This document shows, in pieces, positions 24,220-27,543 of a stretch of DNA of 64,000 nt; position 1 is the first letter of the stretch; each line of letters starts with the position of its first letter. The stretch lies in contig VHBC01000009.1 in the NCBI GenBank assembly GCA_016872115.1, positions 1 through 64,000 of the forward strand, given 5' to 3'. Both the position numbers and the translations under genes were made by a program. Source of the stretch: Sphingomonadales bacterium (GTDB lineage: Bacteria > Bacteroidota > Bacteroidia > Flavobacteriales_D > Crocinitomicaceae). The notes under the pieces are model-generated. The model saw only the letters and a list, made by a program, of their open reading frames with translations. It had not been told where the DNA came from and ran no database searches.

Positions 24220-24521
24220 GTTGATTGGACTCTTTTTTGGTGAAAAGCAGGGCCAATCTCGTGTTTTGGACGTTTCAATCACTGATTAGGAATCTCCATT
24301 TTTGGTTTTCAAACTCCAATTATTCACAACTGAATTCAACAGTTACAGGTACTTTGTAAAAGTGTAGTTTTTTTGTTTCAAGGCCTAAAAGGCATCGGGT
24401 TTATCTTATTTTTATTCGGTTTTAAAAGTTAATATCGATTGGCTCTAATTAGCCCTGCCTGTATACCCAATACAGTAAATGTAATCTGCTTTTCAAAACG
24501 GGTAAGGAACCTCAAAAAATA
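24220..24521. other. Non-coding stretch before tRNA terminator
   Basis: About 300 nt with no supported gene on either strand. It holds two small hairpins, GGCT-N6-AGCC at 24441-24454 and CTGTAT-N5-ATACAG at 24459-24475, neither followed by a T run. I see no clear small-RNA or riboswitch pattern. Confidence 0.5.
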
Positions 24522-24551
24522 AAAAACCCGGCACTTGTCTGCTGGGTTTTT
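24522..24551 (-). terminator. Rho-independent terminator after tRNA-Arg
   Basis: Arms AAAAACCCGGC (24522-24532) and GCTGGGTTTTT (24541-24551) pair over 11 positions, with one G-T pair, around an 8-nt loop. On the minus strand the hairpin starts 3 nt after the tRNA CCA end and finishes in a T run. It could also stop read-through from the plus strand. Confidence 0.85.
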
Positions 24552-24554
24552 ATC

Positions 24555-24631
24555 TGGTGACCCCGGAGGGATTCTAACCCACAACCGCTGGAGCCGAAAT
24601 CCAGTGCGCTATACAGTTGCGCCACGGAGCC
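24555..24631 (-). tRNA. tRNA-Arg (anticodon UCG)
   Basis: The minus strand folds into a full cloverleaf of 77 nt including an encoded CCA. The acceptor stem pairs GGCTCCG with CGGGGTC using two G-U pairs; the D stem is GCGC/GCGC; the anticodon stem CTGGA/TCCAG closes the loop TTTCGGC, giving anticodon UCG, which reads arginine CGA and related codons. Two positions are odd. The D loop reads AACTGTATA, so residue 19 is U instead of G, and the T loop reads TTAGAAT, so residue 56 is A instead of C. The two changes can still pair with each other. The T stem also has a U50-U64 mismatch. Confidence 0.93.
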
Positions 24632-24656: not shown

Positions 24657-24664
24657 CAAATCTA
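24657..24664 (-). promoter_or_regulatory. Candidate -7 box for tRNA-Arg
   Basis: The minus strand reads TAGATTTG, matching TAnnTTTG, and lies 25 nt before the tRNA 5' end. No -33 TTG is visible at the normal spacing. Confidence 0.48.
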
Positions 24665-24714: not shown

Positions 24715-27543
24715 ATGTTCAAAAATTTACTTGTTGTCCTTGCCACTCTAACTTGGAGCTCGTCATTTGCTCAAAACTGGCAGTCATTCACGGATTCCAT
24801 CCCAACCTTGTCCTCGCCGCGTGCATGTGATTTGAACAACGACGGCATCAAAGATGTGGTGTTTGGAGGTGGTACCGACGGAGTGTACAGCAATAATGGT
24901 ATCATGGCCTACAATGGCGCTAATAGCGCGTTGTTATGGAAGCGACCTGCGCGTAACGAAGTGTTTGGCAGTGCTATTTTCAAAGATATTACCAACGATG
25001 GCGTCCAAGATGTGTTTATAGTGGGTCGGCAGGCGCAATTGCTGGCTATAAATGGGTCAAATGGTCAACTCATTTGGGATTATTTTCCTTACAATGTCAA
25101 TCCTGCAGACAGCGGTTTGTATAATTTTTATAATCCGCAGTTTATTGCCGATGTGAGTGGTGACGGCGTACAAGATATTTTGGTGGCAAATGGTGGAGAC
25201 CACGCCGCTCCGGTTTGGGATACCACGCGCCCACCTGGGCATTTGATGGTCGTCAATAGCATGAATGGCCAACTTTTGGCTAAAGCCGTTGTGCCAGATA
25301 GCGCAGAAACTTATTGTTCTGCATTGGTAGCCGATGTACAGGGCAACGGTACCCAATGGGTTTTGTATGGAACTGGCGGCGAAACGCTGGGCGGTAGTTT
25401 TTGGGCTTGCCCACTGAGTGCTTTACTCAATAATACATTGGCGCCGTCAATTGTGCTCATGACCGACCCCCAGCTGGGTTTTGTGGCGCCCGCTTCTTTG
25501 ATTAAAAATGCGTCTGGACAGTATGACATCATTATTCAGTCTTATGGAGGCAAGGTTTCAAAAATCAAAGCGGCCAACTGGAGCACCGTTTGGAGCTACG
25601 ATTTACCCAATACGGAGTCTAGTGCCGAACCTGTGATCGGTAATTTTACAGGTAACTTTGCGCCCGACGTATTCTTGTCATTGGCAAAAGGAACCAGCTC
25701 CTCTTACACCGACTATTACCAAGTCTTGCTCGATGGTGAGTCCGGTCAAGAGGTGTTCAAAGACAGTATTGGCTTGCTGCAATTTGCCTCGGGTAATGCA
25801 ATTGACCTCAATAACGATGGCCGCGATGAAGCAATTCTCTCGGTTAATTACATGCAAAGTGGCGTATGGAAACACCGTTTGGAAGTCTTTGATTTTGTGG
25901 CACATACCATTCAACCCTTGGTTGGCCAGCAAACTGGTGTCAATATCGGATCTACCCCGCTTTTTACAAATCTGGATAATGACAACTTACTCGACCTCGT
26001 TTATGTCGTCAAGAAAGACAGCCTTAACCCAATGGGTTGGAAGGGCGTATATTTGAATAGAGTAGAACTCAGTTCAGTTTTTCCTAACGCTGGTTTGGCA
26101 TGGGGCTCTTATCTGAGTACCCAAAACAATGGCGTTTATTTTAACCAAACAACCAATTGTGGTCCTGGTAGCATTTTGTCGAATGTTGCCGTTACGCAAC
26201 CGTGGTGTAATGGCAGTTCTTCTGGAGCCATCATTCCAGTAGCTAGTCTAGGAACGGCTCCTTACACCTTTTTGTGGTCAAACGGAAGTACCGCCCCACA
26301 GCTTCAAAATGTTCCAGCAGGTACCTACACTTTACAGGTTACTGATAATGCAGGTTGCTATGAAATCTATACCACTACTTTGGTTGATCCATTTGTGATT
26401 ACCTTTGGAGGTGTGGTGGCGCCGACCTGCCCTGGAGGCAGCAATGGTCAGGCGGTGGTAAACAGTTCTGGTTGCCCTTGTATGTTCAATACCTGCCAGT
26501 TTCTATGGGACAACGGCGTGAGTGGTAAAACCAATTTGTCCGCTACAGAAGGCTGGAATACCGTCACTATAACCCACACAAATGGTTGTGTGGTGGTAGA
26601 TTCCGTTTTTGTGCCTTATGCTGCCCCAGTAGTTAATAGCGCAACCCTCCAAATGGTTACTTGTAATGGTGCGGCCAACGGCAGTATTGACTTGGATGTC
26701 AGTTTGGTATTTGCTCCTCAAACTTTTGATTGGAGCAATGGGGTTGGTCAAGCCTACAACGCCAATTTAAGTCCGGGTACTTATGATGTAACTGTTACCG
26801 ACGCACGCCCATGTACGGCAACGTATGCGTATGTCATTACCGAACCTGATTTACTTGTGTCGAATTACAACGTTCAGTCGGTCTCTTGTTCGGGTCTTAC
26901 AGACGGCCAAGTAAACGCAACTGCCACCGGAGGCAATGGTGGCTACACTTATCAAATAGGTTCGTTGGTCAATACTTCTGGTCAATTTAATAATTTGTCG
27001 GCAGGCACTTATGTTTTAATGGTAAATGATTCTCTGGGTTGTGTTGCCTCCAATCAATCCATTCAAATTGCCGAACCACTTGCCTTGACGCTAACCTTAA
27101 ATGCTACATTGGCTTCTGGAGCTGGTAGCCTAGACGGAACGGCCTCAGCCACAGTTAGTGGTGGTGTTTCGCCGTATCAATACGCATGGTCAGGACCAAA
27201 CACCCAGTCAGATAGTATGGCGGTTTACCTTGACGGTGGATGGTATACAGTGCTCGTAACTGACGCAAATGGGTGTAGTATTTCGGACAGCGTTTTTGTC
27301 GATGTATTGGGTTTGAATAACCCCACTGTAACAAACCTTGAAGTTTATCCCAATCCGAGTACTGGACTGTTTAAATTAAATCTAGCGGTAGTACAGCTCG
27401 AAGTATTCGATTTGCAAGGGCGTCATATCACTCATTTTAACGATGCACAAGAAATTGATTTAAGCCATTTGGCCTCAGGTACTTACCAGCTTGTATGTAC
27501 CATTGACAAGCGTACGCAAATATTACGGGTAGTGAAACAATAA
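24715..27543 (+). CDS. T9SS cargo protein with FG-GAP-like and SprB-type repeats
   Basis: A 942-residue secreted protein. After a signal peptide (about 1-20, ending SSFAQ), residues 25-450 hold FG-GAP/VCBS-like repeats with calcium-binding-type loops such as DLNNDGIKD, DVSGDGVQD and DLNNDGRDE, probably a beta-propeller. Residues 485-870 hold five SprB-type repeats, each with C-x-G-x-x-x-G near the start, WSNG or a variant, a PAGTY/SPGTY turn, and TDxxGC near the end. The last 70 residues are a T9SS type A sorting domain (VYPNPSTG, then LSHLASGTYQL). The protein is thus expected on the cell surface or released. Its ligand is unknown. The second repeat carries an unusual extra CPC-x4-C insertion. 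Confidence 0.9.
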   Translation: MFKNLLVVLATLTWSSSFAQNWQSFTDSIPTLSSPRACDLNNDGIKDVVFGGGTDGVYSNNGIMAYNGANSALLWKRPARNEVFGSAIFKDITNDGVQDVFIVGRQAQLLAINGSNGQLIWDYFPYNVNPADSGLYNFYNPQFIADVSGDGVQDILVANGGDHAAPVWDTTRPPGHLMVVNSMNGQLLAKAVVPDSAETYCSALVADVQGNGTQWVLYGTGGETLGGSFWACPLSALLNNTLAPSIVLMTDPQLGFVAPASLIKNASGQYDIIIQSYGGKVSKIKAANWSTVWSYDLPNTESSAEPVIGNFTGNFAPDVFLSLAKGTSSSYTDYYQVLLDGESGQEVFKDSIGLLQFASGNAIDLNNDGRDEAILSVNYMQSGVWKHRLEVFDFVAHTIQPLVGQQTGVNIGSTPLFTNLDNDNLLDLVYVVKKDSLNPMGWKGVYLNRVELSSVFPNAGLAWGSYLSTQNNGVYFNQTTNCGPGSILSNVAVTQPWCNGSSSGAIIPVASLGTAPYTFLWSNGSTAPQLQNVPAGTYTLQVTDNAGCYEIYTTTLVDPFVITFGGVVAPTCPGGSNGQAVVNSSGCPCMFNTCQFLWDNGVSGKTNLSATEGWNTVTITHTNGCVVVDSVFVPYAAPVVNSATLQMVTCNGAANGSIDLDVSLVFAPQTFDWSNGVGQAYNANLSPGTYDVTVTDARPCTATYAYVITEPDLLVSNYNVQSVSCSGLTDGQVNATATGGNGGYTYQIGSLVNTSGQFNNLSAGTYVLMVNDSLGCVASNQSIQIAEPLALTLTLNATLASGAGSLDGTASATVSGGVSPYQYAWSGPNTQSDSMAVYLDGGWYTVLVTDANGCSISDSVFVDVLGLNNPTVTNLEVYPNPSTGLFKLNLAVVQLEVFDLQGRHITHFNDAQEIDLSHLASGTYQLVCTIDKRTQILRVVKQ

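Follow-up and report, generated by a model that had tools for sequence, protein, structure and literature searches.

The gene at 24555..24631 on the minus strand of the window, by which we mean the whole 64,000-nucleotide stretch analysed here, very probably encodes a functional elongator tRNA-Arg(UCG) in which the outermost contact between the D and T loops is predicted to be a Watson-Crick U19-A56 pair that replaces G19-C56. The G19-C56 pair is usually treated as fixed tRNA architecture, on which the elbow binders, among them the ribosome and RNase P, are described to stack. U19-A56 is not an isolated oddity of this gene, and the exchange is recurrent in arginine tRNAs. Our best reading of the window tRNA is that its elbow pair would be Watson-Crick and isosteric, and that the tRNA family to which it belongs appears to tolerate exchange at this place.

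The gene was identified using ARAGORN, which called tRNA-Arg(tcg) as the sole tRNA of the 64,000-nt window, and using the Rfam tRNA model RF00005, which matched over its full length (1-71) with 56.5 bits, where the gathering score is 29, as well as through orthologues in the genus. The genome has 34 matches to RF00005 with scores of 49.4-74.8 bits, and the window tRNA falls inside this range. The mature tRNA body lies at 24558-24631 (minus strand) and is followed, after the discriminator, by an encoded CCA (24555-24557, minus strand); the genus relatives compared have no CCA after the discriminator, and that of the window is probably incidental. The D loop, as read on the minus strand, is AACTGTATA (A14 A15 C16 U17 G18 U19 A20 U20a A21; also written AACUGUAUA), and the T loop is UUAGAAU. 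Position 19, which is G in nearly all tRNAs, is U (24613, minus strand), and its partner, position 56, which is C in nearly all tRNAs, is A (24575, minus strand), and the two positions covary in relatives. The replacement of G19-C56 by U19-A56 given in the preliminary description is confirmed by direct reading of the sequence, and the canonical G19 and C56 are both lacking. The tRNA retains A14, G18, A20, U54, U55, G57, A58 and the discriminator A73, and it has the features of a bacterial tRNA-Arg, with C35 and G36 in the anticodon UCG (24595..24597, minus strand; called by ARAGORN), A20 (24612, minus strand) and A73, where A20 is described, in the parts available of PMC9976931 and PMC8975779, as the base on which arginine identity mainly depends in bacterial tRNA-Arg. 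Its stem flaw is in the T stem, where U50 faces U64 (24581 and 24567, minus strand); this mismatch is real, as had been reported, and common to nine of 63 orthologous genes in the genus.

We examined the tRNA set of the genome and found arginine tRNAs with the anticodons UCU, CCU, ACG and UCG. A D loop with GG goes together with C56 in 31 of the 33 distinct tRNAs, the arginine tRNAs UCU and CCU included, and the only departures are the ACG (A19-U56) and UCG (U19-A56) tRNAs, so one cell uses three elbow pairs. With inosine at its first position, the ACG anticodon would cover CGU, CGC and CGA. The possibility of a sole CGA reader, raised in the preliminary description, is thus not borne out, since this second tRNA exists, although for CGG the UCG tRNA does appear to be the sole reader in this assembly. 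This codon is usually read by a CCG tRNA (PMC3711424, in the part available), and no CCG anticodon was found among the tRNAs of the genome, so the UCG tRNA should read CGG in addition to CGA. CGG is rare but used, with 39 occurrences in 17,765 codons from 48 mechanical ORFs of the window.

Using BLAST with the window gene we obtained matches in 71 of 86 genomes of the genus, in 113 rows, and read 66 of these places, while the 47 lower-identity rows left out may include further UCG genes. The places read comprised 63 tRNA-Arg(UCG) genes from 62 genomes and three tRNA-Arg(ACG) genes. All 63 UCG genes have A20, with U19-A56 in 57 and A19-U56 in six, and neither G-C nor a mismatch at 19/56 was found among them; the three ACG genes are all A19-U56. 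At positions 50-64 of the T stem, 36 of the UCG genes have G·U, 18 have C-G and nine, including that of the window, have U·U. The gene is thus kept in at least 62 genus genomes with A20 and a canonical cloverleaf, which forms part of the case for its function, and with T-stem changes that are compensated, which is not the behaviour of a pseudo-tRNA. An initial possibility that U19-A56 was unique to this genome was rejected, as it is present across the family and in named genomes.

In the family we searched with a pattern that left positions 19, 34 and 56 open, which gave 193 matches in 109 of 120 genomes. The 150 matches listed, from 87 genomes and with none from the window's own genus, are all Arg(NCG) and consist of 100 A-U, 49 U-A and one A·C, with no G19-C56 among them. 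A Watson-Crick combination at 19/56 was observed in 149 of these 150, compared with a maximum of 105 in 10,000 shuffles of the position 56 column, a contrast that is inflated by relatedness, which the shuffles ignore, with the 150 rows representing 43 distinct 47-mers. Both A-U and U-A occur within a single genus: this holds for UCG in the window's own genus and five of those listed, and for ACG in four listed genera. When the states were placed on an ArgRS tree of 28 genomes, at least six changes were needed for UCG and at least six for ACG, with a G-C and an A·C state among those of ACG. The tree covers a single gene and is resolved only in part, 9 of its 25 inner branches being starred; G155, whose locus had no ArgRS frame carrying the class I motif, and G187, which gave no ArgRS match, were left out. 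In one genome (G111) the UCG state changed inside a well supported group of its own genus mates, and two genomes that are paired at 100/98 (G098 and G117) have different ACG states.

Likewise, comparison of 79 distinct arginine tRNA bodies (73-base; loci L001-L174) revealed three pairs that differ solely at positions 19 and 56. The window gene is paired with L068 (from genome G138), L054 with L066, and L058 with L064, both of which belong to the window's genus; when the G138 locus was read a second time (L575) it again gave the twin of the window gene. Together these comparisons indicate that the 19-56 pair, as reconstructed from the sequences, has flipped between A-U and U-A repeatedly in the family, and the in-step swaps suggest that pairing itself, and not particular letters, has been kept. 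Stepwise change at 19 and 56 in relatives, a comparison that the preliminary description had proposed, was seen in part. The sole intermediate seen is A19·C56 in an ACG arginine tRNA (L574, genome G097), while no A·A or U·U was present among the rows listed or read. This gene is also the only mismatch among the family rows listed, and its combination is a natural intermediate between A-U and G-C.

Across 75 genomes of the order, G-C, A-U and U-A copies coexist, and one genome (G209) has A-U in its UCG and G-C in its ACG tRNA. In the class and phylum, among the matches listed and as judged by eye, G-C is dominant and A-U is common in some families. In the patterns used, G18 and G22 set the frame of the loop, and it is this loop type that was sampled. 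Within the phylum, A or U at 19 with A20 and any base at 56 gave 54 genes in 47 of 247 genomes, and all 54 have an arginine anticodon and the complementary base at 56 (52 A-U and 2 U-A), whereas A or U at both 19 and 56 without A20 gave no match in 296 genomes. G19 matches without A20 were plentiful (222 in 61 genomes), and among those listed all have C56 by eye. Five apparent A19 and C56 rows (GATTAG/GACTAG) proved to be G18G19 tRNAs of another loop length that were out of register, and are not mismatches. The Watson-Crick nature of the 19-56 pair is read through covariation only, with complementary bases in 149/150 listed family, 63/63 genus UCG and 54/54 phylum genes, and this, along with twins that differ only there, strongly supports the earlier proposal of compensatory change as opposed to decay.

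We also scanned named genomes for U19-A56 with A20 and detected at least 119 stretches. ARAGORN analysis of 80 such loci returned 79 arginine tRNAs (27 CCG, 27 UCG, 15 CCU, 9 ACG and 1 UCU) and one that was uncalled, but as this wide scan required A20 the proportion is biased towards arginine and controls without A20 were run. Eight genomes of other groups were picked for carrying U19-A56; all their matches in which 19 and 56 are each A or U were arginine tRNAs, and in the Acidobacteria MAG G660 an A-U UCG tRNA, a U-A CCU tRNA and G-C UCU and CCG tRNAs occur together. In the phylum of one Oscillospiraceae genome, 1 of 199 genomes matched and this was the seed itself, so the trait is rare in that phylum.

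In the viral contigs sampled, U19-A56 is almost an arginine trait and A19-U56 is not exclusive to arginine. With A20, all 100 U19-A56 matches are arginine tRNAs, and without A20 there were eight matches (2 arginine, 4 Ile, 1 Gly and 1 Pro), giving arginine in 102 of 108. For A19-U56 with A20 there were at least 124 matches in 120 loci, of which 120 are arginine, two Pro, one Ala and one uncalled. A19-U56 without A20 gave 67 matches, at least one of them apparently out of register with a short D loop, and none is arginine; 65 of them were called as tRNAs for other amino acids, most often Gly, Pro, Met, Ala, Ile, Val and Thr, and together with the three non-arginine calls that have A20 this makes 68 ARAGORN calls of non-arginine A19-U56 tRNAs. 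Strict arginine exclusivity is therefore weakened by the controls without A20. The link between U19-A56 and A20 could in part, though at most in part, be a matter of register, since A56 could pair with either of two neighbouring U bases where U19 is followed by U20, but has no such choice where U19 is followed by A20. However, this explanation predicts U19-A56 in C20 tRNAs, of which only two were seen, both arginine.

One ArgRS gene was found in the genome (L228, 739-2682). In the parts available of PMC9976931 and PMC8975779, the D-loop base A20 is what ArgRS recognises, and the former defines bacterial tRNA-Arg by A20 with A or G at 73. The sources, as far as available, also describe synthetases that are concerned with this part of the elbow, as E. 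coli leucine identity depends on G18G19 and G19-C56 (PMC9976931) and in the T. thermophilus ValRS complex G19, A20 and C56 are in the contact region (PMC5766645). The occurrence of three elbow pairs under one ArgRS agrees with an ArgRS that does not test the pair, but is no proof of this. We considered the A20-pocket motif as a cause of the flips and rejected it, because the E. coli FGDYQ is xGDxT in 28 of the 28 ArgRS read from relatives, whatever the state of the tRNA. In the loci compared (L216-L242), the ArgRS frames of the family are about 630-660 codons long, against 598-599 in two outgroups, and TIGR00456 matches most of the family members in two blocks.

In the explanation that we favour, the cell would need a stacked Watson-Crick pair at the elbow with a flat outer face, as the canonical elbow is described in the available part of PMC4810234, and both U-A and A-U would supply this geometry. 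The tRNA-Arg family would be free to swap the pair because ArgRS reads the adjoining A20 and not the pair itself, and ArgRS would evidently charge G-C, A-U and U-A elbows in one cell, while tRNA-Arg(UCG) would be needed because it is apparently the sole CGG reader in the assembly. Against a strict need for pairing stands the one A19·C56 gene of G097. That the tRNA is decaying or takes no part in translation, or that the assembly is wrong here, appears highly improbable. Decay would account for the U50-U64 mismatch and could be afforded with a second tRNA (ACG) able to read CGA, but the 63 genes from 62 genus genomes are all matched at 19/56 and all have A20, and the gene is the sole CGG reader found in the assembly. 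The preliminary description had tied a pseudo-tRNA to the existence of a second normal tRNA together with a low covariance score or no expression, and while the ACG tRNA does exist, it is itself A19-U56 and the score of the window tRNA is not low but within the range of the other tRNAs of the genome. A pseudogene is thus contradicted by both genus conservation and covariance score, and an assembly error by identical or near-identical genes in many other assemblies.

Two further alternatives concern how the flips came about and bear on the history of the pair. The absence of G-C among the 150 listed family genes, despite repeated interchange of A-U and U-A, hints at selection, and it is possible, if on balance unlikely, that G19-C56 is selected against in the CGN-reading tRNA-Arg of this family, where the pair moves between A-U and U-A with no return to G-C; the candidates would be a hypothetical anti-determinant against a wrong partner, or a nuclease or toxin that reads the elbow. 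A return to G-C would need single transitions through an A-C or G-U mismatch, compared with two transversions from A-U to U-A, and one A-C gene exists; furthermore, G-C is retained in the arginine tRNAs of this genome that have the anticodons UCU and CCU. However, genomes of the order, class and phylum outside the family hold G-C copies of the same isoacceptors, and a founder effect at the family root with a low rate of change could explain the missing G-C. It is rather unlikely that the flips were spread by recombination, through gene conversion or transfer of arginine tRNA alleles, and not by independent double mutations. Transfer could also give the UCG bodies that are identical except at 19/56 in different genera, but each background shows the same variants of the T stem and the anticodon stem, so the flips follow local sequence, and within a genome UCG and ACG are often in different states. 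Even if transferred, the two states had to arise as matched pairs. A broader picture, which we offer as a conjecture with a limited chance of being right, is that across bacteria and phages tRNA-Arg would be the one family with a freely exchangeable 19-56 pair (G-C, A-U and, nearly only here, U-A), with one ArgRS serving up to three elbow types per cell, and that the CGN readers of the Crocinitomicaceae would have been selected against G19-C56, the pair acting as an isoacceptor-specific identity or escape signal.

We compared the window tRNA with known systems, each through the parts available of the papers concerned. As in the canonical elbow (PMC4810234 and PMC9023262), 19 and 56 are predicted Watson-Crick partners and G18, U54, U55 and A58 are kept, which would allow the D and T loops to stack on each other in the usual way; the canonical pair is however G19-C56, as opposed to U-A in the window tRNA and A-U in relatives, and the G18G19/U54-Psi55-C56 contacts are conserved in all eukaryotic tRNAs analysed in PMC9023262. 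With bacterial tRNA-Arg (PMC9976931 and PMC8975779) it has A20, C35, A73 and an arginine anticodon in common, but differs in the exchange of the neighbouring 19-56 pair, and the ArgRS of relatives has xGDxT where that of E. coli has FGDYQ. Natural departures from G19-C56 also include tRNA-Pyl and type II mitochondrial tRNAs, described without the G18G19/TPsiC contact in the available part of PMC7609411, but these lose or rebuild the contact between D and T loops, whereas the window tRNA keeps the loop lengths and G18/U55 and swaps the pair only. No description of an A19-U56/U19-A56 exchange in arginine tRNAs was found in the literature searched, outside which most subscription papers fall, and tRNA compilations may hold such sequences without comment. 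A pair that flips repeatedly, and twins that differ at two bases, offer natural controls with which elbow geometry can be separated from base identity, and the arginine bias raises a question about ArgRS and about the enzymes that act at U54/U55 beside the changed base 56.

In the flanks of the window gene, a box with the sequence TAGATTTG at 24657-24664 (minus strand), whose start is 33 bases before the tRNA, fits TAnnTTTG, the Bacteroidota -7 box consensus, and a terminator-like hairpin, AAAAACCC...GGGTTTTTT, with a CCC/GGG stem and a T run, lies directly 3' of the tRNA (24521..24551, minus strand). A -7-like box and terminator of its own had been ascribed to the gene, and while both are readable in the sequence, a generic signal scan of the window reported neither, so the signs of expression come from reading the sequence. 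A TAnnTTTG-type box occurs up to 60 bases upstream in 17 of the 29 genus loci with enough flank, and at least eight of the other 29 genus loci compared have, by eye, a hairpin much like this one after the gene. Directly upstream of tRNA-Arg(UCG), 10 of the 29 genus loci with enough flank have a tRNA-like stretch of 55-60 bases that has up to five mismatches to the first 17 bases of the tRNA and then continues as other sequence, with a short hairpin in some. It lies at 1445-1500 in L047 and 1383-1500 in L051, and at the same place in L040, L041, L044, L049, L054, L057, L062 and L064, and is exact over the first 17 bases in L047, L049 and L051, the last having a 59-base unit in tandem with two perfect copies abutting the tRNA. 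The window is without this stretch, for which slippage, an integration scar and a tRNA-derived element are candidate causes. The opposite strand carries a 942-aa frame (24715-27543, plus strand) that starts 84 bases beyond the tRNA and has, by eye, the look of a repeat-bearing surface protein.
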